Source: a virus. From it: 41,408 nt of DNA. The position numbers and the translations under genes were made by a program. Position 1 is the first letter of the stretch; each line of letters starts with the position of its first letter. Under the pieces are notes generated by a model, which ran no database searches, was not told where the DNA came from, and worked only from the letters and a program-made list of their open reading frames with translations. Shown piece after piece: positions 1 through 32,000 of the stretch. The stretch lies in IMG/VR virus record IMGVR_UViG_3300030117_003323, positions 418 to 41,825 of that record; one strand, given 5' to 3'.

Positions 1-126
1 AAAATCAAGGAACTGTTCAATAGCCTCTGACTTATTTCCACTAGCAATGGTTTCCCATTTATGATCCTGACTAGGACTACTACAATATCTATCTGTTCGG
101 GATACTCTCCCCATTTGAATTTGCAT
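1..126 (-). CDS. Partial leftward gene (N-terminal 42 residues), unknown function
   Basis: An ATG at 126 opens a reading frame that stays open for 42 codons to the left edge. It begins MQIQMGRVSRTDRY and contains WETIASGNKSEAIEQF. I do not recognise it. It follows a promoter (226-254) and a leader stem-loop (154-190), so it is very probably a real gene and the first one of a leftward operon. The 3' part lies outside the window. If the genome is circular it could continue into the frame that enters at the right edge, but a direct end-to-end join is out of frame. Confidence 0.6.
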   Translation of the reverse strand, partial: MQIQMGRVSRTDRYCSSPSQDHKWETIASGNKSEAIEQFLDF

Positions 127-153
127 ATTTATATTTTGTTTAGAGTTAATGCC

Positions 154-190
154 CCCTCAGATAGAAGCCGTATAAGAAACTATCTGAGGG
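154..190 (-). promoter_or_regulatory. Leader stem-loop upstream of the leftward gene at 126
   Basis: A perfect 11 bp inverted repeat (CCCTCAGATAG at 154-164, CTATCTGAGGG at 180-190, 15 nt loop) lies between the promoter and the ATG, 27 nt upstream of the ATG. No T-tract follows in the leftward direction, so it is a leader structure and not a terminator. It is one of a series of such elements before leftward genes. Confidence 0.7.
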
Positions 191-225
191 AGCTGTGTTT
201 ATTACTGTTCGAGTAACGGAAATTC

Positions 226-254
226 ATTATAGCATCGAGTGAATATTGAGTCAA
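226..254 (-). promoter_or_regulatory. Strong sigma70-type leftward promoter
   Basis: Reading leftward, TTGACT (254-249) and TATAAT (231-226) are separated by exactly 17 bp, close to the consensus for host sigma70 holoenzyme. The predicted start is near 219, giving a leader of about 93 nt that contains the stem-loop at 154-190 before the ATG at 126. Three tandem repeats lie 100-230 bp upstream of the -35 box. Confidence 0.8.
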
Positions 255-357
255 GATATTTTCTTCAATTATTTTCAATTAGTACATACCTTTTTTTCAT
301 GCCTCATGCCCGCTAAAAACTATCTCCCTATTCATAAGTCAGGGTGCAGGGCGCAAG

Positions 358-485
358 TCTCAGATGCCTGTTTGCCCCGCTAAATTCAAATCATCATTGA
401 ATCTTTAAATCTCAGATGCCTGTTTGCCCCCCATATAAATTCAAATCTCTATTTAAACTTTAAATCTCAGATGCCTGTTTGCCCC
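358..485. repeat. Three tandem repeats, 52-55 bp period
   Basis: A 21 bp core containing CAGATGCCTGTTTGCCCC occurs identically at 358-378, 410-430 and 465-485. Between cores the AT-rich spacer is partly conserved (AAATTCAAATC, CTTTAA). No gene overlaps. The spacing is near five helical turns and the array sits upstream of the leftward promoter at 226-254 and beyond the terminator at 537-571. It could be a regulator-binding array or replication-origin iterons. The rest of 127-588 shows nothing else that I can support. Confidence 0.75.
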
Positions 486-536
486 CCTCCAAAACCAATG
501 CGAGCGATAGCGAGCGTAGATTTTGTGCATTAGTAT

Positions 537-571
537 AAAAAAACCTACTAAGAAATTAATCTTAGTAGGTT
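537..571 (-). terminator. Intrinsic terminator of the 5395-to-589 leftward operon
   Basis: A perfect 11 bp stem (AACCTACTAAG at 542-552, CTTAGTAGGTT at 561-571, 8 nt loop) is followed in the leftward direction by a run of seven T (537-543 on this strand is A). It lies 18 bp beyond the stop of the gene at 589, as expected for a Rho-independent terminator closing the left operon. Confidence 0.88.
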
Positions 572-588
572 CTGTAATATTGTATTGG

Positions 589-1284
589 TTATATGTTGAC
601 TGTGAATCCTGATTCATCTTTGATAGCGTCTCCTTTTGCTTTTAGTGCTACTATTCTGTTTGGTTTATCTAGGAATCTTAGGTCATGTTGATCACCGTTG
701 ATTGTTAGCATGTCTTCCCATCCTCCTCCTCCGTTTTCTTGTAGGTCTTTGTTGAATACGACTGCTACATTTACACCTAAGTTTACCATACTTTGTATGA
801 AACTTATTTTGTGATCTTCGGATCTTGAGAATGTTAAGTGGTAGTTGTCAGGTAGTTCTTTGTTAGCGAATTTCATTGCTCTCACATGGTTTTTTGTGTA
901 GTCATAGAACTGTATATCTGGATTGTTTTCTATGATTCCATATCTTTCCCATGAGATGTCGCTTGTTAGGTTTAGTCTGAAACATGGTTGAAGACCTTCT
1001 TTATCAGCCATGCGTTTAGCTGAGTATATATCTTTTTGTAAGAACTGTAGGAAGTTTGCTTTACCTTCTTTGAACATGATAGTCTTTTTGATTCGTGCAT
1101 CTTGTACCATATTCATACGTCCTCTTCCTGAAGTATTTAGACAGGCTTTTATACATCCTTTACTTGCGAATCCACATACATTGTAGCCTGATAATTTGTG
1201 TGGTGCTAAGTGTAATCCGAATGTCATCCATCCGAATTGTTTGCTTTTGTCTATTTTTGCGTTGTTGATTGTGAGTAATCTCAT
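589..1284 (-). CDS. Gp88-like Cys-containing phage protein
   Basis: A 231-residue protein when started at the ATG at 1284. A frame extension to a GTG at 1305 would put the start inside the stem-loop at 1293-1309 and is less likely. Near the N-terminus is a Cys cluster, NVCGFASKGCIKACLNTSGRG, with C-x5-C-x3-C spacing, followed by a Gly/Arg turn. This matches my memory of the phage 'gene product 88' family (DUF7227-type), small early proteins of unknown biochemistry. The cysteines suggest a metal site, which is inference. It is the last gene of the left operon, followed by a terminator. It also contains one copy of the 10-mer CCTGATTCAT (608-617) that recurs elsewhere in the window. Confidence 0.7.
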   Translation of the reverse strand: MRLLTINNAKIDKSKQFGWMTFGLHLAPHKLSGYNVCGFASKGCIKACLNTSGRGRMNMVQDARIKKTIMFKEGKANFLQFLQKDIYSAKRMADKEGLQPCFRLNLTSDISWERYGIIENNPDIQFYDYTKNHVRAMKFANKELPDNYHLTFSRSEDHKISFIQSMVNLGVNVAVVFNKDLQENGGGGWEDMLTINGDQHDLRFLDKPNRIVALKAKGDAIKDESGFTVNI

Positions 1285-1292
1285 TTTGAAAT

Positions 1293-1309
1293 GGGGGACT
1301 TTCACCCCC
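1293..1309 (-). promoter_or_regulatory. Short G/C stem-loop before the ATG at 1284
   Basis: GGGGG (1293-1297) and CCCCC (1305-1309) form a 5 bp stem with a 7 nt loop. It lies between the stop of the upstream gene (1316) and the ATG at 1284, with 8 nt between stem and start. There is no T-tract. It occupies the same position as the other leader stem-loops of this operon. Confidence 0.5.
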
Positions 1310-1315
1310 TAAGTA

Positions 1316-1630
1316 TTAGTAGTTTTCTATTATGTATTCTAGTCTGTATCCTAGTTCATCTGTTTCTTCTTCGCCTAGTTCTTTTAGAACTTTCATTGCG
1401 TATCCTTCATCTACTCTTTCTTCCCAACTATCTGGATATTCGTTCATGAGTTCTGTGAGAGTTGGGTAGTATGTTCGATATACGAGTATATCATGTAGGT
1501 TTAGTGAATGGGTTGACTTTGTTGCTTCTTGCTCGAATACGTGCATGATTGCGTACATCGGCCATCCTCTTGCTACATCCCAATCTTTTACGAGCTTGTA
1601 TGCTTCGTATGGTGTTATATTTACTAACAT
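1316..1630 (-). CDS. Hypothetical early protein, 104 aa
   Basis: A complete frame beginning MLVNITPYEAYKLVKDWDV and ending in a Glu/Tyr-rich tail. It has no signal peptide, membrane segment or recognised motif. Acidic and mostly helical by eye, it looks like a small soluble phage early protein. It is third from the end of the left operon and is separated from the 25-residue gene upstream by a very stable stem-loop (1646-1665), with 15 nt between the stem and the ATG. I do not recognise a family. Confidence 0.75.
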   Translation of the reverse strand: MLVNITPYEAYKLVKDWDVARGWPMYAIMHVFEQEATKSTHSLNLHDILVYRTYYPTLTELMNEYPDSWEERVDEGYAMKVLKELGEEETDELGYRLEYIIENY

Positions 1631-1645
1631 AGTTTTTTAAGTTGT

Positions 1646-1665
1646 GGGGGGAGTTGCCTCCCCCC
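1646..1665 (-). promoter_or_regulatory. Very stable 8 bp stem with GNRA-type loop
   Basis: GGGGGGAG (1646-1653), loop TTGC, CTCCCCCC (1658-1665). As leftward RNA the loop reads GCAA, a GNRA tetraloop, which suggests that the leftward transcript is the functional strand. The 3' flank on that strand is ACAACTTAAA, shared with the stem-loop at 4985-5012. The ATG of the next gene is 15 nt downstream. No U-run follows, so this is not an ordinary terminator. Confidence 0.7.
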
Positions 1666-1672
1666 TTGGTTG

Positions 1673-1750
1673 TTATTCTGATTCAATTACTATGAATGCA
1701 ATACATACTATTACTAGCCACATGAGTGACCATACTATGACTGCACCCAT
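1673..1750 (-). CDS. Tiny single-pass membrane peptide, 25 aa
   Basis: The ATG at 1750 lies inside the last codons of the DUF932 gene (overlap 16 nt) and opens a 25-residue frame reading MGAVIVWSLMWLVIVCIAFI followed by VIESE and a stop. Almost the whole peptide is hydrophobic, a clear single transmembrane helix with a short acidic tail. Overlap with the upstream stop suggests translational coupling. Small membrane peptides of this type occur in phage early regions as host-takeover or superinfection-exclusion factors; a role here is inference. The purely hydrophobic composition argues for a real gene, but its length keeps confidence moderate. Confidence 0.5.
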   Translation of the reverse strand: MGAVIVWSLMWLVIVCIAFIVIESE

Positions 1751-2922
1751 TGTACTTTGCTTTTGTTCATTTTAGGGTTGAAGTATGTTGCAGGAAGTGT
1801 TTCATGCTTAGTTGATAATAGGTTGTGTCCTATCTGTGCATGATAGTCTAGTTCTCTGTCATCAACTACTTGTGATAGCCACTTTGCGAATCCTGCTTTT
1901 GCATCTGCACCAGCTCCGAATTCACTTGATGTGTATTTCTTCCATGCTTTTGATTCTGAACCATCATCATGTCCTGTTCCATCTCCACTTGTGTAGTATT
2001 GAGTAACTGCATTGAAGAGATCGTATAGGGTTTCTCCTTTGTTACCGATACCATTTTCGTGTAGATATGCTACGTCTACAATTTGATTGAAGGCTCTAGT
2101 AGACATGATTGTGTCAGCACTTACTTTGATACCTTTGTATGCTGATATAAGTGCTTCAGCTTTTGCAGTATTACATTCTACTTCAGCGAACTTATTCATC
2201 ATATGGACGAATTGATCTCTACCTTTGTAGATGTTAGCAATGGTACGTCCTGCTTCATCAAGTCTAAGATCTGCATTAGCAGTTTTCTTTATCTTGATTG
2301 ACAAGTCACCTTGATCTGATAGTGCATACTTGAATGTATTTGCACATACAACTCTTGTGTTTGAATCAAACATTGTCATTGCATATGAACCATCGTGTGA
2401 CTGTAGTAGGTTTAGATAGAACTGGAAGATATCTCCATTGATCAATCGGTCTGCATCATCTGCAATTTCTATTGATGAGAAGAATAACTTTGCGTTCTTT
2501 AGTGTACCTAATGTTTGTATACTGTAATCGATACCTTCATCATCTAGTGAGTTGCATACTGCTTGCACTAGTTTCTGGTTAGGTATTGATTTGTATCGTG
2601 TTGATGGTACTCCAAGTCCGTATCGGATGCCTTCAAATTCTCTGGTGAGTATCTTGTTTTCAGGACACTCTGCCCATGTATTGATAAGCTCGATGATGGA
2701 GGAGTGTGGGAGTCCACCTTGTCTTGCTGAGATGTCTAAGATTTCTTTTCTTAGATCTGGGTTTACATCTGCATAAGCAGTTCCTTCATGTATATCGTGA
2801 TATACATTGCGGTGATCACTATCAATGATTTCTTTTGATAGTACTTCTTTTACTTTTTCACGTCCGTGCCATTCTTTTTTGGTGGACATGACTGTATCTG
2901 TATGTTCGATTTGATGTGACAT
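1735..2922 (-). CDS. DUF932-family phage/plasmid-like protein
   Basis: A 395-residue protein. The central part (LGVPSTRYKSIPNQ, then FFSSIEIADDAD, then SHDGSYAMTMFDSNTRVVCA with NTFKYAL) is the characteristic pattern of the DUF932 / 'phage-plasmid-like' family, usually 300-400 residues. Its molecular role is not established; members are found in early regions of phages and on plasmids. It is the largest gene of the left operon. The start follows an AT-rich 40 nt leader downstream of the stem-loop at 2963-2987, without a Shine-Dalgarno. The C-terminus overlaps a 25-residue membrane peptide gene. Confidence 0.8.
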   Translation of the reverse strand: MSHQIEHTDTVMSTKKEWHGREKVKEVLSKEIIDSDHRNVYHDIHEGTAYADVNPDLRKEILDISARQGGLPHSSIIELINTWAECPENKILTREFEGIRYGLGVPSTRYKSIPNQKLVQAVCNSLDDEGIDYSIQTLGTLKNAKLFFSSIEIADDADRLINGDIFQFYLNLLQSHDGSYAMTMFDSNTRVVCANTFKYALSDQGDLSIKIKKTANADLRLDEAGRTIANIYKGRDQFVHMMNKFAEVECNTAKAEALISAYKGIKVSADTIMSTRAFNQIVDVAYLHENGIGNKGETLYDLFNAVTQYYTSGDGTGHDDGSESKAWKKYTSSEFGAGADAKAGFAKWLSQVVDDRELDYHAQIGHNLLSTKHETLPATYFNPKMNKSKVQWVQS

Positions 2923-2962
2923 AGTATTTATTTCTTTCTATTTTGTATTTATATGTTGTTGA

Positions 2963-2987
2963 TTATGATGAAGTTGTATCATCATAA
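2963..2987 (-). promoter_or_regulatory. Leader stem-loop upstream of the DUF932 gene
   Basis: A perfect 9 bp inverted repeat (TTATGATGA at 2963-2971, TCATCATAA at 2979-2987) with a 7 nt loop, just after the stop of the upstream gene at 2995. The ATG at 2922 is 40 nt downstream through an A/T-rich stretch. AT-rich stem without a U-run. Confidence 0.55.
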
Positions 2988-2994
2988 AATTGTA

Positions 2995-3666
2995 TTAGTA
3001 TTCTCTTGCAAGTTCTTGTAGTAGATCAGCGACTCTGCTTGATGTTTTCTTTAGCTTTTCAGTAGATAGTTTTACTTCTTCATACATGAGATCTTTTAGT
3101 TCTTGTATGTTTGAATCAAGTCTGTTGAGTTCTTCTTGCATTGATTCTTGATCCATGTCTTCCATTCGCTCATGTATTAGATCAGCTATGTCAGATGTAT
3201 CAAAGTGTTCTGCAATTTCACTTGGTGAGAATTGATCAGCTACTTGATATGATACATCGTTAAGGTCTATTTTGTTTGCGAGACTTTCATGATCAACTTC
3301 GTATGCAAGTTGATCGTAGTTGATACCATCTGCAATGGTTTCAAGTGCTGAGTCATTGTCTAGTATATTGTCTGCAACTATTTGAACAGTTGTTTCACAG
3401 AAGTCTTTGTCTTCTGATATTTCATCTGTGACATCTTTTATGATGTCTTGTTTCATAATAAGTTCTTTTGTAATATTTTTTACAGTGATGTTTGCTCTGT
3501 TGATGATTGCATCAAGGAGTTTGTTTTTGATTGCTCTGAATGGAGCTAGTAGTTTATATTTCATAGTTTGTTTTTGGAAGTTGAGTTTGTTTTTGCAGAT
3601 CATACGTCCGTGGTATGCTGTTACTGGTGTTTTTTTAGTTGTTTTTGATTTTTTGAAAAGTGACAT
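2995..3666 (-). CDS. Basic N-terminus plus acidic repeat/coiled-coil protein, 223 aa
   Basis: The first ~45 residues are Lys-rich (MSLFKKSKTTKKTPV). Residues ~90-165 form imperfect short repeats of the type YDQLAYEVDHESLANKID, NDVSYQVADQFSPSEIAEHF, TSDIADLIHERM, each a short amphipathic helix with a conserved Asp and Ala. The C-terminal ~55 residues look like a coiled coil. Comparable 'LAxxIDxxxVA' repeat proteins are common, uncharacterised phage early proteins. It starts 1 nt after the stop of the preceding gene, so translation is probably coupled. No function can be given. Confidence 0.7.
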   Translation of the reverse strand: MSLFKKSKTTKKTPVTAYHGRMICKNKLNFQKQTMKYKLLAPFRAIKNKLLDAIINRANITVKNITKELIMKQDIIKDVTDEISEDKDFCETTVQIVADNILDNDSALETIADGINYDQLAYEVDHESLANKIDLNDVSYQVADQFSPSEIAEHFDTSDIADLIHERMEDMDQESMQEELNRLDSNIQELKDLMYEEVKLSTEKLKKTSSRVADLLQELAREY

Positions 3667-3667
3667 G

Positions 3668-3997
3668 TTAATCTTGGTTAAGTGGATCGAGTTTGAATTT
3701 TTTAGCGTATTTCTTTTTAAGAAGTGGGCTGAAGAACTGTGAACCTTCGTTACCGAATCGTATACCGACGTATATATAGTTAGTATCTATATAGTTAGGT
3801 TCTGCGTTTTTTGATGCGTAGAATCTGTAGGCATCTACGTTTACACTATCTTGAGTGTAATAATCTATTCTATCTTTGATACCTTCTTTGGTAAGTTCTT
3901 CACCTTCATTGAATTGTAACTCTAGTGCTTTGACTAGTTCATAAAATTCAACAGGTACTGCATTTGGATAGTGCTCTGTTGTCCAGTATGTTTTCAT
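3668..3997 (-). CDS. Hypothetical early protein, 109 aa
   Basis: Begins MKTYWTTEHYPNAVPVEFYE and is rich in Tyr, Asn and Lys with a basic C-terminus (KKKYAKKFKLDP). No signal peptide or membrane segment. It overlaps the upstream gene by 4 nt (ATGA type), so the four genes from 4957 to 2995 form a tightly coupled block. I do not recognise a family. Confidence 0.7.
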   Translation of the reverse strand: MKTYWTTEHYPNAVPVEFYELVKALELQFNEGEELTKEGIKDRIDYYTQDSVNVDAYRFYASKNAEPNYIDTNYIYVGIRFGNEGSQFFSPLLKKKYAKKFKLDPLNQD

Positions 3998-4311
3998 AGT
4001 GTTCTGATAAGGTTTGGATCGTTTTTTATAATGTGTTTGATGTGTTCTGCTATGTATACACCGAAGTTATCGATGTTATTGAGATGTATATTTCTTTGAT
4101 TGTGTGCCATTGCGAATGCATTGGTATCCATTAGAGCATCTTTGATGGGGTCTTCATCTTGTGGATAGTAGTCCCTACCATGAAATGTAGATGCTTTGAT
4201 TTTTTCTTTTAGTTCTTGGATAGCTACTGCTATCTCGTAGTATTCTTCTAGGAGTACTTGATCTGAAGTACCGTTGGGATGGATTGTTGGTAGTATTATT
4301 TCGTCTTTCAT
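3994..4311 (-). CDS. Conserved phage hypothetical ('PTIHxNGTS' family)
   Basis: Started at the ATG at 4311, 1 nt after the upstream stop, the protein has 105 residues. It contains PTIHPNGTSDQVLLEEYYE near the N-terminus and GRDYYPQ in the middle. The combination of an N-terminal TIHxNGTS with a later GRDYY is the hallmark of a small protein family spread over many phages of Proteobacteria, in which a long helix precedes the GRDYY element. I know no assigned function. It sits in the coupled early block. Confidence 0.75.
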   Translation of the reverse strand: MKDEIILPTIHPNGTSDQVLLEEYYEIAVAIQELKEKIKASTFHGRDYYPQDEDPIKDALMDTNAFAMAHNQRNIHLNNIDNFGVYIAEHIKHIIKNDPNLIRTL

Positions 4312-4312
4312 T

Positions 4313-4957
4313 TTAGTTATAAGCAACTTTGTTTAGTAGTTTTTGTATTCCTTCTTTGGATATTTCTACAGTTCTTGTATCGATATCATATCTGTTTTTT
4401 AGTTCTTCAATGTTTATTGGGTATGGGAGATCGTTGTATGCATATGATCCTACTTTTAATGATAGTTCTTCAGCTATGATTTCTGTTTGTTTGTACCAGT
4501 TAACTCTTTCATCCATTGCTTTTTTGGATACATCGTCCTGTTCTTTTTCTGATTTATCTAAACTTTCTTTCCATTCATTGCCCTGTCTATCGTACATATG
4601 TTTGTTGCTGTGATCTAAGCCGAGTTTGTTTAGTTTTTCTCTAACTTGATATGCAATCTCATTATGCTTGTTGATTGTTTCAAGCATGTCTTCTTCTGTT
4701 AGATACCATTGGTAGTACTCATCGTTACAATCTTGATTTAGATATTGTAATTTTACACTGTGGAATTCGTGATCTTGATTTTTTGTCTCAGATGCTAATT
4801 GATTGTACACTTTCCCGTAGTGCTTCCTGAGTTTTGTGTACTTTGATTTTTCTTTTTTATATTTGAGGCGATTTGTAATCGCCTCAGTAATTGCAATTGC
4901 AGTGATAATTAGGATTAGTAATGTGACTATGTCGTGTGTGTCTAGGTGGATGTTCAT
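4313..4957 (-). CDS. Membrane-anchored coiled-coil protein, 214 aa
   Basis: Residues ~9-28 (DIVTLLILIITAIAITEAI) form a single N-terminal transmembrane helix, followed by a Lys-rich stretch and a long charged, helical domain with many Glu, Lys and Gln. This topology would put the bulk in the cytoplasm or the periplasm, anchored to the inner membrane. The upstream side carries the stem-loop at 4985-5012 and a 27 nt AT-rich leader. No family recognised. Confidence 0.7.
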   Translation of the reverse strand: MNIHLDTHDIVTLLILIITAIAITEAITNRLKYKKEKSKYTKLRKHYGKVYNQLASETKNQDHEFHSVKLQYLNQDCNDEYYQWYLTEEDMLETINKHNEIAYQVREKLNKLGLDHSNKHMYDRQGNEWKESLDKSEKEQDDVSKKAMDERVNWYKQTEIIAEELSLKVGSYAYNDLPYPINIEELKNRYDIDTRTVEISKEGIQKLLNKVAYN

Positions 4958-4984
4958 AATTTATTGATTTTGAATTTAAGTTGT

Positions 4985-5012
4985 GGGAGCCACTGGATTG
5001 CCAGTGACTCCC
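4985..5012 (-). promoter_or_regulatory. Leader stem-loop upstream of the gene at 4957
   Basis: GGGAG-C-CACTGG, loop ATTG, CCAGTG-A-CTCCC: 11 paired bases with one mismatch and a 4 nt loop. In the leftward direction it is followed by ACAACTTAAA, the same flank as at 1646-1665, and then by the ATG 27 nt downstream. No T-tract. Confidence 0.65.
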
Positions 5013-5020
5013 GATTGATA

Positions 5021-5395
5021 TTAGCTGTTGATTCCAATGTATTGGGAGATGTCTGTCCCTTCAGGTAGCTTTTCTGAAGTATTGGTTTCCTTGAGTTCTG
5101 TGAGGTTGCCACAGAATGGAAGCAGGTTGTTGTCTTTTCTTCTTTGATCCGCTTCTGCCTTTGTGATGTTGGGCAGGAGGCTGTGTGTTGATGACCTTCT
5201 AACTTGTTGATCATTACAGGGTGTGAATATCATTTTTAGCTTTACGGCTACTCGCTCCTGCCCCTGCTTGTCGGTGAATTTCTCAATTACGACTTTGTCG
5301 GCTGGGTATTTCGTGATGTCAACTTCAACGTAGCCTTTTGTTGGACTGTAGTTGAATTTTGAGTTATCAGTGTCGAATGGTGGTGTATCTTGCAT
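5021..5395 (-). CDS. Hypothetical first gene of the left operon, 124 aa
   Basis: Begins MQDTPPFDTDNSKFNYSP. The middle segment GYVEVDITKYPADKVVIEKF with KQGQERVAVKLKMIF looks like beta-strands of a small beta-barrel, so a nucleic-acid-binding fold is possible but not shown. It is the first gene after the leader that carries two stem-loops (5433-5455, 5472-5505). The ATG follows an A-rich stretch with no Shine-Dalgarno. Family not recognised. Confidence 0.7.
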   Translation of the reverse strand: MQDTPPFDTDNSKFNYSPTKGYVEVDITKYPADKVVIEKFTDKQGQERVAVKLKMIFTPCNDQQVRRSSTHSLLPNITKAEADQRRKDNNLLPFCGNLTELKETNTSEKLPEGTDISQYIGINS

Positions 5396-5432
5396 ATTAT
5401 TTTTTAGTTAAGTTTTTATGAATACCAAATCC

Positions 5433-5505
5433 AAGGATAAGATATACTTATCCTTCTGCTGGCGATCTGGATTGTCAAGGCCGAGCCCGCCGAGTGCCTT
5501 GACAA
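5433..5505 (-). promoter_or_regulatory. Two leader stem-loops upstream of the left operon
   Basis: The first is a perfect 9 bp inverted repeat (AAGGATAAG 5433-5441, CTTATCCTT 5447-5455; 5 nt loop), 37 nt before the ATG at 5395. The second is a perfect 10 bp repeat (TTGTCAAGGC 5472-5481, GCCTTGACAA 5496-5505) with a GC-rich 14 nt loop. Both would lie in the leader of a leftward transcript starting near 5537. Confidence 0.65.
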
Positions 5506-5531
5506 ACTAAGCTTGGTGGATGAAGCTCGCC

Positions 5532-5954
5532 TGAATCCACTTCAATATAAAAGGAGCGTAGTGTTCTGTTAGAATCGGTGTATAAAACAGTGAAGACTGC
5601 GAGCGAAAATCAAATTGGGCAGGGCTTTATAAGCGGACCCAGACCAATTTGATTTTTGTGAGTCAAACTAGCTTAACGGGTCGCTTTTATGCAACTATTC
5701 TAACAGAACACGCAGCGACCAAGATTTGAGCCAGTACCTTGTCCGAGCGTGGAATAAGAAAAGCCCATAGGCGTAGGGAGCACCGCCTGTACAAATTACA
5801 AGTGATGTTTAAAATAGTTAGGACAGCAGAGTTAGAGTGATGTAACCAACACCATTAAATACAGGGCAGGTGGTGCGTGTAGTTCTTCGAGCACTAGAGT
5901 GATGTGTAAGTTATTGCACGTTGTAGTGCTCGAAAGTTCTAGCGTGTGGATTCA
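5532..5954. ncRNA. Candidate large structured RNA in a gene-free region
   Basis: The 860 bp between 5396 and 6255 has no credible gene and looks richer in G+C than its neighbours. Inside it are a closing pair TGAATCCAC (5532-5540) with GTGGATTCA (5946-5954); a 15 bp stem 5561-5575 with 5697-5711; nested in that a 13 bp stem 5606-5618 with 5644-5656; a possible pseudoknot of the inner loop (AAGCGGACCC, 5631-5640) with 5678-5687; and an 11 bp hairpin 5886-5896 with 5924-5934. Concentric stems, branches and a loop-loop helix are what large ornate phage RNAs (GOLLD, ROOL type) show. The coding strand is not decided. A DNA role, for example in replication, is the main alternative. Confidence 0.45.
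5544..5572 (-). promoter_or_regulatory. Weak candidate leftward promoter for the left operon
   Basis: Reading leftward, CTAACA (5572-5567) and TATATT (5549-5544) are 17 bp apart. The -35 match is poor (4 of 6). The position fits, because a transcript starting near 5537 would carry both stem-loops and then the gene at 5395. The -35 box lies within the 15 bp inverted repeat. Confidence 0.3.
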
Positions 5955-5973
5955 TGCATTATGTATAAGGAGT

Positions 5974-6011
5974 CCTGATTCATTAGTTATTAATCATGGT
6001 ACAGGAATCAG
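5974..6011. repeat. Dyad element, copy 1 (CCTGATTCAT-N14-GGTACAGGAATCAG)
   Basis: CCTGATTCAT (5974-5983) and GGTACAGGAATCAG (5998-6011) are separated by 14 bp. CCTGATTC and GAATCAGG form an 8 bp inverted repeat. The same pair with the same spacing occurs at 7202-7239. A further inverted copy of the first half (ATGAATCAGG) lies at 6048-6057. Confidence 0.7.
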
Positions 6012-6255
6012 GGTGTAATGCAATGCGGGCAACATGAATCATTGATCATGAATCAGGATTCCGTAGCCGTGCAAAAGGGGCGTATGGTTCATGGATCACG
6101 TGCCGTGTATCGCTTGCGTTGTGTTGTATTGGTTATGCCTAGAATGTATCGGATACGCTACGGGTGGGTGGTGCGTTTTTTGTGGGTCTTATACTTTATA
6201 TATGAGGGCTTTGAGAAAAAATTTGACTTATTTTTGCCCGCTCATATTAGTAAAT

Positions 6256-6504
6256 ATGGCAGACCTTAAAAAACAAGAATATTACAAAAACAACAAGAAA
6301 AAAAGGCTAGAGTACCAACGTAAGTACTACGAGATGAACAAAACTAGTATCGCTGAAAAACGAGAAAGGGAGAAGGCTGAAGACCCAAAGTGGAGAGAAA
6401 AACAGAGAGCTTATAATCGGGCTTACTACCTACAGAACAAAGAGCGTATAATGGAGCAAAGAAGGCTCAAGAAACAGGGTACAGAAAACCGCTCACAAGA
6501 ATAA
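6256..6504 (+). CDS. Small highly charged 'YYxxNKxK' protein, 82 aa
   Basis: Started at the ATG at 6256 (an upstream in-frame extension has unrelated, implausible composition). The protein is almost entirely Lys, Glu, Arg, Tyr and Asn, in imperfect repeats such as YYKNNKKKRLEYQRKYYEMN and YNRAYYLQNKERIMEQRR. This pattern, long charged helices with paired tyrosines, is common in small phage and large-virus proteins and often flanks HNH-type genes; nucleic-acid binding is a reasonable guess. It is the first rightward gene after the hairpin-rich region. Confidence 0.65.
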   Translation: MADLKKQEYYKNNKKKRLEYQRKYYEMNKTSIAEKREREKAEDPKWREKQRAYNRAYYLQNKERIMEQRRLKKQGTENRSQE

Positions 6505-6604
6505 GCGGGTATTTGCCAAAACAGCGGGACCAAAGAATTGACCATATGGATTTTAAGCGTCTATATTATTTCCCAAAACTTTTTCTAATAAATGTAAAAA
6601 TGCT

Positions 6605-6657
6605 TGGTACAGTTTCTATTAAATGTAATTACATTGTAAATAATAGAAACTGTACCA
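6605..6657. repeat. Long cruciform with inner palindrome
   Basis: A perfect 16 bp inverted repeat (TGGTACAGTTTCTATT at 6605-6620, its complement at 6642-6657). The 21 nt loop contains the perfect palindrome AATGTAATTACATT (6622-6635). It lies in the 230 bp gap between two small rightward genes, next to a very AT-rich stretch with another palindrome (TATATTAATATA, 6676-6687). No U-run follows rightward; leftward the flank is AGCATTTTTAC, a poor terminator. It could be a replication origin, a transcript-processing site or a weak terminator. Confidence 0.65.
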
Positions 6658-6734
6658 GAAGAAAATAACATTATCTATATTAATATATGTAATATGTATT
6701 GATTCAATTTCTTTTCTGTGTTACCTCTTTTGTT

Positions 6735-7199
6735 ATGGAAAACCTACTAGAAAAAACTGAAAGGAGACCTATCCCCAAAACAAAATACGAAATAGACCAA
6801 CATGGATTTATTTATAACAAAGGGAGGAGGTTGCGTTCGCAGTATAAAAATGGTCGGTGGTACTGCAATATTTACAAAAAAGGAGGTAGGCAGTTTTCTG
6901 TAGACACCGAAAGACTAGCTGAGTTGATTTTCAGCGACGAGAATCCTCCAGAATTGACGAGAGCCATGATTGAGGATCAGATTAAGGCCCGACAGGTTCC
7001 AGAGTATCCTCGCTACTCTGTGACCGAATATGGAGCTATCTACTGTATGGTCCCTCCCAAGAGGGGTCCAAACTCAGGGAAGATGTATCTCGTTAGCGAG
7101 AGGACTAATGAATCAGGTAAGCAATATGTTGTTTTGTATGATTACGAAGGCTGCCGTCGGCATGTACAAGTTCAATATATCGTGGACTCTGTATGGTGA
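6735..7199 (+). CDS. Tandem NUMOD4-like protein without a visible HNH domain
   Basis: Start chosen at the ATG at 6735 (154 residues). Two similar units are visible: YEIDQHGFIYNKGRRLRSQ with YKNGRWYCNIYKKGGRQFSV and TERLAELIF, and later YSVTEYGAIYCMVPPKRG with GKQYVVLYDYEGCRRHV. This is the 'yevsn-GrVrs ... GY-vvL-k-g-k-vHrLva-aF' pattern of NUMOD4-type DNA-contacting modules of homing endonucleases, but the His before Arg-Leu is Thr here and no HNH catalytic core follows. A DNA-binding remnant or regulator is the best guess. The gene contains ATGAATCAGG (7108-7117), and its stop codon lies inside the dyad element that follows. Confidence 0.6.
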   Translation: MENLLEKTERRPIPKTKYEIDQHGFIYNKGRRLRSQYKNGRWYCNIYKKGGRQFSVDTERLAELIFSDENPPELTRAMIEDQIKARQVPEYPRYSVTEYGAIYCMVPPKRGPNSGKMYLVSERTNESGKQYVVLYDYEGCRRHVQVQYIVDSVW

Positions 7200-7239
7200 T
7201 CCCTGATTCATGATTCCTGACTCAAGGTACAGGGATCAG
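7197..7239. repeat. Dyad element, copy 2, between 7199 and the portal gene
   Basis: CCTGATTCAT (7202-7211) and GGTACAGGGATCAG (7226-7239) with the same 14 bp spacing as copy 1. Here TGATCCCTG (7197-7205) and CAGGGATCA (7230-7238) also form a perfect 9 bp inverted repeat, so the symmetry is kept although individual bases changed, which suggests a functional dyad. Confidence 0.7.
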
Positions 7240-7247
7240 ATTCACCC

Positions 7248-7275
7248 TTGTAGAAAGCTAAATTGGCCTTAAATT
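7248..7275 (+). promoter_or_regulatory. Weak candidate promoter for the portal gene
   Basis: TTGTAG (7248-7253), 16 bp, TAAATT (7270-7275), ending 9 nt before the ATG at 7285. The boxes are only fair. The distance to the ATG is the same as for the promoters at 33205 and 33727, which is the main reason to list it. Confidence 0.3.
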
Positions 7276-7284
7276 TATTGACTA

Positions 7285-9501
7285 ATGTATAATGACCCAA
7301 AAGCCCTTCAGGAGTTGGATGGTTTAGCTGCTTTTGACAAAGACGGCAAACCGATGCAGAGCCGTATTAAAGATGTAAAAAGTGCGTTAAAGATATTTGA
7401 AGGGCTTCGCAAAGCGGATGAGCAATCGTCTGTAAACAGAGCCAGAGTAGATGCGATGTTTGATGGGGCTAATCCCTACAATCAAGCGCAACTAAATGCG
7501 AGCGGTCAGGGTCTTAAAACTAATTTGAATTTCGGAGAGGCTCAACGTCTTTTGGATATATCGCTATCTGCCTACGTAGACCTTTACTCTTCACTAGAAA
7601 AACTAGTGGAGGTAAAGGGTACGCAGGGAGAGCCTAGCGAGATTACGCAGCAGGAGGATATTGTTTCTGAGGAGATAACTCATTTGTTGCGTAGTTGGCC
7701 TGATTTCCATTCCCACTACCTTCGTCTTTGTACGACGTTCATAAAACATGGTACAGGGATCACTTACTTTGATACGCCTGATGACTGGAAGTTTAGGGTG
7801 GGTAGTTTTGCTGATATTTTGATACCGAGGCAAACACCTGCATCTGAGTCGGCTATTGATGTAGCGATTGGTCGTAGGCAGTATCACATACATGAGTTAT
7901 TTAATTTCATCAAAAACCCAAAAGCTGCTAGTAAGGTAGGTTGGAATGTTGAAGAGGTTAAGCGGGTTCTTTTGAAGAACGTGACTACACGGGGTCGTAG
8001 GAATCATAAGAATATTTATGATGATTGGGAGTCGTTACAGTCTGAGTTAAAAAACAACGACATACATGAAGGGTATCAAAACCCTACAGTATCTGTGTTA
8101 CATTTTTGGGTACGTGAGTTAGATGGGAGTATATCTCATTACATATCTACGGAAAGCGATTGCAAAGATTTTTTATACAAGAAGATTTCCCGTTATGAAA
8201 AGCCAGAACATGCGTATGTTATGTTTACGTATGGAGTAGGCTCGAATGGAACATATCATTCGATACGGGGGTTGGGGCATCGTATCTTTAACCACATTCA
8301 GACGAGCAACCGATTGCGTTGCCAGATGATTGACGGTGCGATGTTAGGATCGGCAGTTATGATTCAACCCGAAAACCAGAGGGCGTTAGATGAATTAGGG
8401 TTTACGTATTATGGAGCATATGCCGTCCTATCCCCCAACGTTAATATTATTGAGAAGGCAGCACCTAACTTGAGTACTGGTGTGCAGCCAGCACTGAACG
8501 ACATATCGAATCAGTTAGCTTTGAATACTGATACTATCAGTACATATGGGCCTAATCAGAGTTCACCGTACAAGAATCAGATGCAGGTTGTTGCTGACAT
8601 GGATGTTAGTACTCGATTATCTGGTGCTTCCTTAAACCTGTTTTATGCTTCATGGAACAGGCTTCTTAAAGAGATTGTTAGGAGGATAGTAAATGGGAAG
8701 CAAGACAGAGAGCTTAACGAGTTTTATAGTAGGTGTGCAGACCGAGGGGTACAGGAATCATTTATCAAGACATTGGATTTGGCTAGGACAAAAGCCGTCC
8801 GATCTATTGGCAATGGCTCGTATGCGAATAGATTGGTTGCCCTTCGGGAGTTACAAGCTATATCAGGTTCGTTTGATGAGGTTGGTCGTAAGAACCTTAC
8901 TCGTGATATAGTTTCTACTCGTGTCGGGCATGATTTAGCTGACAGGTATGCTCCTGTGGTAGAGGGTGCTCGCCCAACTGTTGATAGTAAGATAGCTTAT
9001 CTTGAGAACCAACAGTTATCAGAAGGCATTTCTGTTCCTGTGGTTTCGACTGAATTACACGCAGCTCATTTGGCGGAGCATATTCCAGCTTTGACAGGGT
9101 TAATTGAGCGTTTGAATACAGGTCAGGCAGATCCGTTGCAGGTTTTACCTGCCTTACAAGCATTTTATGAGCATATTGCAATGACTGCGGAGCAGTTAGC
9201 AGGAGATCCTATGCAGCAAGGTTTGGTTGGTCAGGCTAAACAAGTCCTTCAATTTGCAGAGGAGATGATAAATAACACCTCAAAACAAGTACAAAAGATG
9301 CAGCGTGAGGCTGCTGAAGCGGGTGGTACTCCTGAAGGCGGTGAAGATCCTGCAATGACTGCTAAAATGCAAGAGCATCAGATGAAAATGCAGATGGCAC
9401 AACAAAAAGCTGAACTTGACATGCAGTTAAAACAAGCCAAGTTTGAGCAAGAGCAAGCATTGCGTGATGCAAAGACCGCAATGGACTTGCAAAAACAATA
9501 A
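7285..9501 (+). CDS. Portal (head-tail connector) protein
   Basis: 738 residues, first large gene of the rightward structural block. The N-terminal part (ANPYNQAQLNASGQGLKTNL) is typical of podovirus-type portal proteins of marine phages, where 'NPY' and 'TNLNFGEA' elements precede the wing domain. The C-terminal ~70 residues are a Gln/Met/Lys-rich coiled coil (MQEHQMKMQMAQQKAELDM), as in portal barrel helices. Position directly before the scaffold-like gene and upstream of the capsid gene agrees. Twelve copies would form the ring at the packaging vertex. The ATG is preceded by AT-rich sequence without a Shine-Dalgarno. Two GGTACAGGRATCA motif copies lie within the gene. The expected terminase gene is not adjacent. 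Confidence 0.8.
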   Translation: MYNDPKALQELDGLAAFDKDGKPMQSRIKDVKSALKIFEGLRKADEQSSVNRARVDAMFDGANPYNQAQLNASGQGLKTNLNFGEAQRLLDISLSAYVDLYSSLEKLVEVKGTQGEPSEITQQEDIVSEEITHLLRSWPDFHSHYLRLCTTFIKHGTGITYFDTPDDWKFRVGSFADILIPRQTPASESAIDVAIGRRQYHIHELFNFIKNPKAASKVGWNVEEVKRVLLKNVTTRGRRNHKNIYDDWESLQSELKNNDIHEGYQNPTVSVLHFWVRELDGSISHYISTESDCKDFLYKKISRYEKPEHAYVMFTYGVGSNGTYHSIRGLGHRIFNHIQTSNRLRCQMIDGAMLGSAVMIQPENQRALDELGFTYYGAYAVLSPNVNIIEKAAPNLSTGVQPALNDISNQLALNTDTISTYGPNQSSPYKNQMQVVADMDVSTRLSGASLNLFYASWNRLLKEIVRRIVNGKQDRELNEFYSRCADRGVQESFIKTLDLARTKAVRSIGNGSYANRLVALRELQAISGSFDEVGRKNLTRDIVSTRVGHDLADRYAPVVEGARPTVDSKIAYLENQQLSEGISVPVVSTELHAAHLAEHIPALTGLIERLNTGQADPLQVLPALQAFYEHIAMTAEQLAGDPMQQGLVGQAKQVLQFAEEMINNTSKQVQKMQREAAEAGGTPEGGEDPAMTAKMQEHQMKMQMAQQKAELDMQLKQAKFEQEQALRDAKTAMDLQKQ

Positions 9502-25649: not shown

Positions 25650-26045
25650 ATGGCCGATCCAGTACCTATAGAAATAAAACGAGGGAGGGCGACTACGTTT
25701 TTATTAACGTATATGCCAGCAGTAAATAGTGGTTCTCAAACTTCTAAAGATTTTACTTCTGGTTTTACTGCTTCTTTAGTTATCCGAAGGAAAATAGGCA
25801 ACTCGTATAATGGTCCTGAAGTAGATACATTAACTACGGCTAACAATAGAATAACTTTTCCTAACCCTGTTGTAGATGGTGCTCAAACTGGACCTAACAT
25901 AAAATTAATTTGGAGTTCTAATGATTCTGCTGCTTTACCTAATGAAGCTAATAGGGTTTTTGGGGACTTAAAAATATCTACAACAGGAGGTTCTGTAGAA
26001 CACTCATTTAGATTAACAATAGACATAATACCTGAAATAAAATAA
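25650..26045 (+). CDS. Ig-like/baseplate-associated protein, 131 aa
   Basis: Starts 2 nt after the previous stop and overlaps the giant fibre gene by 1 nt (TAATG). A short beta-sandwich pattern: VPIEIKRGRATTFLLTYMPA, DFTSGFTASLVIRRKIG, LTTANNRITFP, IKLIWSSNDSAALP, and a final SFRLTIDIIPEIK. This resembles N-terminal domains of baseplate-upper (BppU-like) proteins that anchor receptor-binding fibres. Position directly before the fibre gene agrees. Confidence 0.6.
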   Translation: MADPVPIEIKRGRATTFLLTYMPAVNSGSQTSKDFTSGFTASLVIRRKIGNSYNGPEVDTLTTANNRITFPNPVVDGAQTGPNIKLIWSSNDSAALPNEANRVFGDLKISTTGGSVEHSFRLTIDIIPEIK

Positions 26046-29000
26046 TGTCAGATGCTACACTTACTGTAACACAGTCCTTAGACACTTTATCAATAACCAC
26101 CATTGCTGGATCTTCTTTAGCTGGGGGAGGTACTATAACTGGCCCGCTCAACATAGGGGTTGATGATGCAGGGCATGACGTAAAGTTTTTCGGGGATACT
26201 GCTTCTCGCTACTTGTTATGGGATGCTAGTGATGACTCACTTAAACTTAGTGATAGTGCAAAACTAAAATTAGGTAACTCTGATGATCTTCAGATTTATC
26301 ACGACGGCACTAATAGTTACATAGATAACAGCTCTACTTATCTCATATTAGAAAGTGGAGCTATAATATTAAGGAATAATGCAGGTAATGAAGATTACGC
26401 AAAGTTCATAGGAGATGGAGCGGTAGAACTTTATTTTAATAATGTAAAGAAAATTGAAACAACAAACGATGGGGCAACTGTATCAGGAAGTTTGACCGTT
26501 AATGGTGGTTTGAATGTCGATGGGACAGTTACTTCCTTTGATAGTACAACCGTCACCATTGATGACCCTGTATTCACTATAGGTGGTGACACGGCTCCTT
26601 CATCTGATGACAATAAAGATAGGGGTATTGAGTTCCATTACCATGATGGTTCTACCCCTAGAGTCGGATTCTTTGGTTATGATGATTCTGAAAGTGCCTT
26701 TACGTTTTTAACTTCGGCTACAAACAGCTCAGAAGTTTTCAGTGGTACGTTAGGTAATTTAAAAGTTAACACTGTTTACCATGCTGATGGAACTGCTGCA
26801 TCTCCAAGTGTTAGATTTAATTTAGATAGCGACACAGGAATATTCCGCCCCACCGCTAACAATATAGCCATCACCGCAGGTGGCACTGAAGTTATACGGT
26901 TTGACGGAAATCTAAAAACCACAACGAAAGGTTCAGTTCGTGTAAATGGCACAACAACTGATGGCATTACCGTAGCGTCAAGCCCAACAGCTTCTTATGG
27001 TTTAAAATTATTTAATAATTCTTCGACTGATGCAGCTTCAATAATTAATCATTACAATGGTAGTTTAATATTAGGGACATCTAACACCGAAAGATTAAGA
27101 ATACATGGCGACGGCAACATAACGATTGGCGGAACAGCGGGGCAAGCAATGCTCCAGCTTGAAGGTGGAGATGTTCGTGTAGACAACACAAGATCCTTCT
27201 TAACAGAAACAGCAGGTGGTGGGGTTATAGCTGCTGTCTCAATGAACTCTTCTGATAACCTTACATTTGGCGATGGCAACTTTGTCATTGATGTAACAGG
27301 TACAGCGGAAAGAATGAGGCTAGACAGTAATGGTCGTTTAATTATAACAAACTCTGCGCCAGTCGTTCAACTTATCGAAAGTGATGCAACAAGCACTTTC
27401 AACAATACGGAGATTTCCTTATCGGGGGGAGCGTTAAATCTGAACACAAGACAATCAGATGGAACATTTGTATCAACAGATTATCAAATTTCCAAAAACG
27501 CAAGCGGTGCAACTATGCATAAGTTTCTTATTGCAGGAACTGAAAAAATGCGTCTTGACTCAACAGGACTCATTACAGTTGCTGGCACAGGCGGTGGTGC
27601 ATTAACAATAGGCTCACATATAGATTTAGGTGATAACCAACAAGTAAGGCTTGGTGCAAGTGATGATTTACAACTTTATCATGATGGGACTCATTCTTAT
27701 ATTTCTAATACTCAAAACTCTGGAAACCTAATAATTGAAAATGGGGGCAATGACCATGACATAGTTTTCCGCTGCGATGATGGCTCTGGTGGCGTAACCG
27801 AGTATTTCCGTTTAGATGGTGGTGCGACTGCGTCTGGATTTCCGCAGACAATAGTTCCAGACAACGCATCTATTCGTTTTGGTGATGGTGGTGACCTGAT
27901 TATATATCACTCAGGATCTGAATCTGAAATTAGAAACCTCAATGGAGATTTACGAATTGTTAACAGAGCAGATGATAAAGATATTATTTTCCAAAGTGAT
28001 GACGGAAGTGGAGGGACAAAAACTTATTTCCGTTTAGATGGTGGTGCAACTGCATCTGGATTTACACAGACAATATTTCCTGACAATTCTCTTTTGTGTT
28101 TGGGTGATGGCAGTGACCTACTTTTGTACCATAACGGTACATATTCTGAATTAAGAAATTCCACTGGAGATTTTAATATTGTCAATAGAGCAATTGACAA
28201 AGATGTTATTTTCCAATGTGACGATGGGTCGGGTGGAGAAGAAACCTACTTTTATTTAGATGGATCAGCTTCAAGTGGTAATCCAATTACTGTTTTTCCC
28301 GACAACTCTTTTTTAGCTTTTGGAACAAGTTTTGATTTTAGCATTTACCATGATTCGGCTAATACATATATCGCTAATTCAACTAATGATTTATACATCC
28401 AGAACAATGCTGATAATAAGGATATAATTTTCCGATGTGATGACGGTTCTGGTGGTGTAGCAGAATACTTCCGTTTAGATGGGGCACTCGCACATTCAGT
28501 TGTCTCTAAGCACATTAGATTTGAAGATAATGTCATCGCACGTTTTGGAAGTGGTAATGACGCATCACTATACCATACTGGCACTGATACTATATTTGAG
28601 AATACTAATGGTGATTTATACATTAAAAATCATGCAGACGATAAAGATATTATTTTCCAGAGTGATTATGGTGATGGCACTGTTGCAACTTATTTTAGAT
28701 TAGATGGAAGTTTTGGAGGAGCAGGTTACCCAACAACATTATTCCCTAACAACTCATCATTAAGGTTCGGTAACAGTGGCAATTTACAGATAATCAACAA
28801 CGGCACTGATTCCTATATCCAAGAAAACAATGGTGACCTTTATATAAGGCAAAGCACAGACGATAAAGATATTCATTTACAATGCGATGATGGTTCTGGT
28901 GGTGTAACTGACTATTTAAAAATCTCTGGGGCTAACAACGATATCCGTGCATATAAAAACATAAAATTATCTGACAACTCAAAAGGTATTTTTGGAGACG

Positions 29001-32000
29001 GAAGTGATCTACAGATCTACCACGACGGGAGTAATTCATACATTCGAGACGAAAGCGGAACAGGTGATTTAATAATCAGCACAAATGCGTTCAGATTAAA
29101 ATCGGCAAATAATGGCGAGACTATGATGACTGCCTTTGAGGATGGGGCTACTAATTTGTACCATAATAATGTACAAAAGTTTGAGACAACTGCTGATGGT
29201 GTTCAAGTCACTGGTGACATTTTAGCGTACACAGACAGCGGTCAATATTTTCAATTAGATCATTCTGACAATTCAGTAAAACTTTCTGACAATGTTAAGC
29301 TGAAGATTGGTACAGGGATGGATTTCCAAATCTTCCATACAGGAACCAACACAACCATGCTTGACCAAGGCACAGGTGCTTTGGTCATTGCTTCAAATAA
29401 CCTAAGAGTTTTATCCGCAAACCAGTCTGAAACTTTATTTGAAGCTACTGAAGATGGAGCCGTTGAGTTATACCACAACAACGTAAAGAAATTTGAGACA
29501 ACTTCTGCTGGTGTAACGATAACTGGCGACCTAACAGTTTCAGGCAGTACGAACCAAACATTCAACGACCTTACAGTTAACGGCAACCTAACAGTAAGTG
29601 GCACAACCACAACCATAGACACGGCAAATCTGACAGTTGAGGACAAGAACATTATAATTGGAAATGTATCTAGCCCATCTGACACAACTGCTGATGGTGG
29701 TGGATTTACTTTAAAAGGTGCTAGTGATTATACGATTCAATGGACTGATGCAACTAACAGATGGCAATTCAATCAAGGTATTCAAGTAGATGACAGCAGC
29801 CGTTTTGTAGTCGGTTCTTCTGGTGATGCTTCTTTTTATCACAATGGCACACTAACTTATTTAGAAAATGCCACTGGCGATTTAACTATTAGGAATTTAT
29901 CAGATGGTGACGACATAATTATTCAAACTCATGACGGATCTGGCGGTGTAGAAAATTATTTGCAGTTCGATGGCGGTGGTCGTTTGATGCAAGCATATAG
30001 AACATTTAGGGCGCTTGATGATGTAAAAATACAAGCTGGATCTGCTGGAGATTTTGATATTAAACACACTTCAGATAATTCTTACATTGAAAACCATAAA
30101 GGTCATTTATATGTAACTAACACAGCCGATGATTCTGATATAAGGTTTCGATCAGATAATGGATCTGGTGGGATAGCAGAATACTTCCGTTTAGATGGTG
30201 GTTTAGCTGATGGTACAAACTTGTACACAGTTTTCTCTGACAACTCTAGAATAAGATTTGGAAATGACCTTGATCTAGATATTCACCATGATGGATCTAA
30301 CAGTTACATAAGTCAAACTGGTACTGGTAACTTAAACATTCAGCAGACTGTCGATGATGCCGATATTATATTTAAATGTGATAATGGCTCTGGAGGCACG
30401 ACTCAATACTTCCGTTTAGACGGTGGTTTAGGGTACAGCGTTGCTTCTAAAGAAATTCGGTTTAATGATAATGTTCCTGTTTATTTTGGAGACGGTAATG
30501 ACTTAGTTATTTTACATAGTGGAACAGAATCAACAATAACTAATTATATAGGCAACTTAACTTTTAAACAACAACAAGCTGACGGAGATATAATATTTCA
30601 GTCTGATGACGGTTCTGGTGGAGTAGAAACCTACTTTGCTTGTGAAGGAGACTTTTCATCAGGAAATCCATTTACAGTATTCCCAGATAACTCAAGATTG
30701 TCTTTGGGTAATGGTGCTGATACTTCGATGTATCACACAGGAAGTGTTACTTACTTTGAAAATAATACAGGTGATTGGTACTTCCTACAGGGAGCAGACG
30801 ATAAAGACATTATCTTCCAATGTGATGATGGCTCTGGTGGATTAGCTCAATACATTGTTATAGATGGTTCGGCAGGATTAACTCAATTTGATAAGGATGT
30901 TAAATTTACAGATACTATAAAAGCTACTTTTGGTAATAGTAGTGATCTTTCAATTCAACACGATGGCAATAATAGTTACATTTCAGAGAATGGAACTGGA
31001 GATTTATTCATAGAATCAAATAATGCTAGTATATTTTTAAGAGATTCAAACAGCGGAAACACAATGCTCGCTGCCAAAGGTGGTAGCAGTGAAAAAGTTG
31101 AGCTGTACCATAGTGGTTCCAAAAAGTTCGAGACATCTTCAACAGGAGCTACGATAACTGGAAACCTCGTCATGGGAACAGGTTATACTATGTTTGCTGA
31201 TGGAGGACGTGCAAGGTTTGGAGATAGTAACGATTTAGATATTTATCACGATGGTTCAAATAGTCGCATACAACAAACAGGCACAGGTGCTTTGATTATA
31301 AGCCACAATGTTGACGATGCTGATGTCAGGTTACAAGCCTCTGGTGGATCTGGTTCTGCTTCTGATTATATAATTTTAGATAGCAGTCAAACGTCTATAA
31401 GAATGAAGCGAAAAGTAAAGTGGGATGACAATCTCTACGCTACTTTTGGAGATGGGGAGGATTTCACTATACACCATAATGGTACAAATACTTTAGTCGC
31501 TAATAACACAGGAAATTTAAAGTTTACAAATTATGCAGATGACGCAGATATAAAGTTTGAATGTGATGACGGTTCTGGAGGAGTTACAGAATATTTCCGT
31601 TTAGATGGTGGGTTAGGCTATTCAGTAGCTTCTAAACAAATCACCTTTTTAGATAGTATATCCGCAGCTTTCGGGTCAGATAACGACTTAGGAATTGACC
31701 ACAACGGAACTGACGGTAGGATTTTTAATTACACAGGTGATCTTTATATAAGCAATTTTGCTAACGATAAAGATATTATCTTCCAATCTGATGATGGTAG
31801 TGGAGGATCAGCACCCTATATAACAATAGACGGAAGTGCTTTATATACTAAGATTCACAAAAACTTATTACACTTAGATAGCATTTCAAGTTATTACGGA
31901 CACGATGCTGATGCGTATGTTCGCCACACTGGCACAAACTTTGAACTTTATAATACAACAGGCGACACAATAATAAGAAATTCGGCTGATGATAAAGATA

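Follow-up and report, generated by a model that had tools for sequence, protein, structure and literature searches.

A conserved phage control region with a direct-repeat array upstream of a near-consensus promoter

The locus and its phage

The window analysed here, the whole stretch of 41,408 nt, corresponds to positions 418-41825 of the 41825-base IMG/VR virus record IMGVR_UViG_3300030117_003323. Profile searches identify a family A DNA polymerase, a DUF5906 helicase-primase, an endolysin, a gp88 protein and a DUF932 protein, and relatives additionally encode a large terminase and a small-terminase-like HTH protein, so we regard the source as a tailed phage. A plus-strand gene at 26045-33181 encodes a protein of 2378 aa in which matches to tail-fibre and structural families recur many times. 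No DNA match to named phages was found for window positions 1-8000, and every match of the polymerase in a phage collection fell below 60% identity (the best among the matches listed was about 27%), which indicates that this phage has no annotated or cultured close relative. A search for a cellular relative of the polymerase found none, a homology search of the helicase-primase against solved structures gave no meaningful match, and Rfam and tRNA searches returned no matches.

Near the left end of the window, a promoter lies between a gene of the Gene product 88 family (PF17338; 589-1305, minus strand) and a leftward operon of small genes. The gp88 gene points in the same direction as the promoter, and its intrinsic terminator (540-573, minus strand) separates its operon from the array and promoter described below. 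The promoter is of the sigma-70 type, TTGACT-N17-TATAAT, on the minus strand with its hexamers spanning 254 down to 226. These agree with the consensus at 11 of 12 positions, and the element has the make-up of an extended -10 promoter: TTGACA-like and TATAAT hexamers, a gap within the range of 16-18 bp, and a TG (in TGC) one base before the -10. Transcription is predicted to start near 219. An initial sequence-only reading of this DNA had called this the best promoter in the window. It is the best intergenic one, but it is tied at 11/12 by a second site (29630, plus strand) that lies inside a long coding gene and has no extended -10.

Upstream of the promoter are three copies of a 21-bp sequence with the core CAGGCATCTGAG, all on the minus strand: a promoter-distal copy at 465-485, a second at 410-430 and a promoter-proximal copy at 358-378, whose core starts 114 bp from the start of the -35. 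The copies match without mismatch at start-to-start distances of 52 and 55 bp, exactly as the sequence-only reading had described them. When up to three mismatches are allowed, the window holds only these three copies, against a shuffle expectation of 0.00. The two distal copies form part of a longer repeat of 52 nt with 90% identity. Between array and promoter, positions 255-355 (minus strand) form a stretch that is conserved in an alignment of eight genomes, with a CCTGNNCCYTGA motif beside the last copy and an A/T-rich, UP-element-like stretch beside the -35.

Downstream of the promoter, the predicted transcript begins with a small 6-bp stem-loop (201-217, minus strand), followed by a leader hairpin with a 14-bp stem (151-193, minus strand) that folds far better than shuffled sequences (z -5.5). 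No T run follows the stem, and this hairpin is thus not an intrinsic terminator. Its loop differs in the relative L010, and in G021 both sides of the stem are altered at three pairs with pairing kept, an in-register structure seen among three distinct sequences only.

The operon opens with ORF J (1-126, minus strand; MQIQMGRVSRTDRYCSS...), which starts at 124-126 and runs past the window edge, as had been noted; its product has 69 aa where the gene is complete (G009). Just left of the window, inside this gene, the record carries a 10-N gap (record 408-417) with a duplicated AAAATCAA on both sides. Because the same eight bases flank the gap and the gene is continuous in the relative, an assembly join is the probable cause of the gap. 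Further downstream the operon consists of leftward, co-oriented small ORFs in a fixed order, of which the promoter-proximal J, K, P and D are present or absent between relatives and several are linked by an identical GGAGGTATCA ribosome-binding linker. These cassettes occupy record 1-543 left of the window, L006 5800-8000, L008 6000-8300 and the equivalent loci elsewhere, and their small ORFs are probably accessory early genes exchanged between relatives.

Conservation of the array with the promoter

Relatives were sought with gp88, the promoter, the hairpin, the polymerase and the motif as queries. Eight genomes carry the locus, namely the window (G000), L006/G001, L007/G002, L008/G003, L009/G004, L010/G005, L105/G009 and G021; a near copy of G021 (L144), L134, lies beyond the eight. 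When a wider collection was scanned for pairs of the motif, only L105, L144 (G021) and L134 were added to the group. The many other matches were rejected as promoter arrays, being spaced at multiples of 15 bp, as coding repeats are, or coding-looking; the other loci of the second such scan were assessed by spacing only.

The sequence-only reading had proposed a search for the same array in related genomes, and had named its absence from close relatives that keep the promoter as evidence against the idea. Such an absence was seen in none of the eight genomes. All of them carry two or three same-orientation copies of a core at the same place, so that several motif copies in one direction beside the promoter are conserved together with it. 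However, the 21-bp unit itself, exact within the window, is found elsewhere only in the nearest relative, L006, which has it twice. All members of the group share a core of about 10-13 bp, with the consensus cAGRCWTCHGAGa and seven invariant positions among 19 sites. It takes the form GGCATCTGAG in the window, L006 and G021 (where the first copy reads GCCATCTGAG), GACTTCAGAG or GACATCAGAG in L007-L010, and GRCATCYGAG in L105.

Flanks, copy number and spacing vary among the eight genomes while the core stays. Spacing between copies is 52-55 bp in the window and L006, 22-23 bp in L007-L010, 19-21 bp in L105 and 56/28 bp in G021. From the start of the last copy to the -35 the distance is 93-130 bp in five genomes, 274-278 bp in two and about 88 bp (counted by eye) in L105, which places the array 88-278 bp upstream of the -35 throughout. 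The motif is also nearly unique to this place: exact CAGRCWTCWGAG occurs in G000-G005 only in the array, and with a weight matrix the array sites of the scanned genomes score 18.0-27.4 and the best other site 17.0.

The promoter is retained to differing degrees. Five relatives have the same hexamers and a spacer that is the same or differs at one base, and L105 retains the hexamers with a diverged 16-bp spacer. The -10 element of G021, TACCCT, is poor, and promoter strength is therefore not uniform among the relatives.

Part of this conservation is simple recent ancestry, since relatives mostly share 87-98% identity in the promoter block and the cassettes, and the eight genomes are not eight independent cases because G000-G005 share the block by recent descent or exchange. 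This identity, together with the variable copy number, would fit functionless repeats that arose by recent duplication and travelled with a promoter block shared through recent exchange. Such a history is nevertheless unlikely given the diverged classes (window/L006; L007; L008-L010; L105; and G021, with a partly shared flank), whose flanks differ and in each of which the core persists at least twice per genome.

The array belongs with the promoter rather than with the neighbouring gene. In L105/G009, where gp88 was not found and the DUF932 gene is inverted and 41% identical, promoter, hairpin and first gene are again accompanied by the array. Of the proteins encoded in the neighbouring operon, only DUF932 is present in all eight genomes, which makes it a weak lead as a candidate partner of the array.

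The gp88 operon itself (window 589-5395, minus strand) has an extreme composition at fourfold-degenerate sites, with coding-strand A of 0.48-0.70 and G of 0.00-0.12; in its larger genes nearest the array A is 0.59-0.71 and G at most 0.05. This composition is unlike that of every other phage gene measured and is alike in relatives, and the bias is almost absent from the inverted DUF932 copy of G009.

Replication and packaging as alternatives

Iteron-type origins, such as the lambda O sites and the iterons of P1, F and RK2, are built from direct repeats that are about 20 bp long and all point the same way. The array resembles them in repeat length and orientation, and its spacing is near 22 bp in several relatives. 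The copies might therefore be origin iterons beside a promoter, bound by a phage initiator or by the helicase-primase, a reading that the sequence-only analysis had also offered and that we consider less likely but still a serious alternative. Consistent with it, spacing is iteron-like (19-28 bp) in six of the eight genomes, the phage encodes its own family A polymerase and DUF5906 helicase-primase, and in G009 divergent operons are separated by a gap in which the array is accompanied by an extra 4 x 29-bp tandem repeat and an A/T-rich stretch. The G009 tandem repeats (L105 1866-2002) are origin-like in appearance and absent from the other relatives.

However, the array differs from iteron origins in having only two or three copies, spaced up to 56 bp apart, and no DnaA-like box was found near it. 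Cumulative GC skew, which had been suggested as a check for an origin and which we extended to neutral codon sites, lends the idea no support, and no strand-composition switch was found at the site. In relatives the skew extremes lie away from the array, and whole-sequence skew mostly follows gene direction. Neutral-site skew beside the array is limited to the gp88 operon and stops at its ends with no mirror across the array, so it is a property of that operon rather than an origin signature. Moreover, the polymerase and helicase-primase are 96-99% identical in genomes whose array spacing and sequence differ.

Packaging or DNA-processing sites bound by the small terminase subunit are likewise typically direct-repeat arrays, and a small-terminase-like HTH protein is encoded beside the large terminase. 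It is nevertheless very improbable that the array is such a site. In G001 the terminase genes (11.1-13.6 kb) lie some 20 kb from the array (31.9 kb), and contig ends do not fall consistently at the array. The small-terminase-like protein is also 98-100% identical across genomes with different arrays. More generally, replication and packaging proteins stay 96-100% identical while the array changes, and are less likely partners for that reason.

A putative upstream operator

We consider it about an even bet (probability near 0.5) that the array is a set of upstream binding sites for a DNA-binding protein that modulates the promoter. What is directly observed is the promoter sequence, the array with its conservation, near-uniqueness and linkage to the promoter, and the leader hairpin. 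The region is a real, conserved control region of a familiar kind, with a motif that was previously undescribed. Positions 126-588 would control a leftward operon whose genes are small and variable: a strong host-type promoter starts the transcript, and a stable 5′ hairpin probably protects the mRNA or paces it. The same-direction copies of cAGRCWTCHGAGa, two or three in number and about 125-310 bp upstream of the start, would serve as sites for a sequence-specific protein, most likely phage-encoded. Such a protein might bind cooperatively to two or more copies and modulate the promoter from a distance, either by activation or by timed shut-off.

The sequence-only reading had likened the region to phage early promoters with operator arrays or origin iterons. 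Its view of a promoter with protein-binding-like direct repeats holds up in all eight genomes. The word early, by comparison, comes from gene content only, namely many small ORFs behind a host-type promoter, and the origin it mentioned lacks support from GC skew.

A point against an operator is the distance of the sites, 88-278 bp before the -35, as bacterial activators and repressors rarely act so far upstream without DNA looping. Profile searches covering part of the early genes found no phage regulator paired with the motif, and the only HTH protein found, the one resembling a small terminase subunit, does not vary with the motif classes. This result, and a promoter of the host sigma-70 type, would also suit binding of the copies by a host regulator or nucleoid protein instead of a phage protein. 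We regard this as quite unlikely, since the motif occurs at this single place in the phage genomes. A scan with a single pattern over cellular genomes at large, a slight test of this idea, gave no array, returning two bacterial contigs with one core copy each.

Among known systems, literature searches for a like arrangement gave as analogues only the late-activator sites of the Alt/Ltr type, as in TP901-1, and phi29. In TP901-1, asymmetric, imperfect direct repeats in one orientation precede the promoter of late genes, occupying -76 to -32 relative to the start, and are taken as sites for a phage-encoded activator (PMC13123087). The layout of one-orientation direct repeats upstream of a phage promoter is shared with these Alt/Ltr late-activator sites; the present repeats differ in lying further upstream, in preceding a small-ORF operon and in having another motif. 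No Alt/Ltr homologue was found. In phi29, the promoter region A2c/A2b/A3 is controlled by p4 and p6 (PMC3100819). The likeness is that of a promoter region with phage proteins on nearby DNA, the protein being putative in our case; the repeat arrangement is different, and no named homologue came up in searches that were not aimed at p4 or p6.

The region provides an uncultivated phage group with a defined control element, consisting of core motif, promoter and leader hairpin, that can be tested directly in a heterologous reporter. The region also marks the start of a variable small-gene operon, and operons of this kind often hold anti-host functions of phages. A more speculative scheme, to which we give little credence, is that array, promoter block and shared ribosome-binding linkers together form a gene-exchange hot spot. 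The block would then be a constant, strongly expressed entry point for swapped small host-takeover genes, and the array a fixed boundary recognised by a phage protein for transcription and for replication or recombination.

Other repeated words occur in the same interval. In G021 (L133 1268-1353) a 29-nt repeat containing GTGCAC (AGTGCACCCCCTATTCACAAG) is present in two copies between array and promoter, and words resembling GTGCAC or GTATGTAC are found near the -35 in several relatives. Words of the GTGCAC type are a possible second operator.
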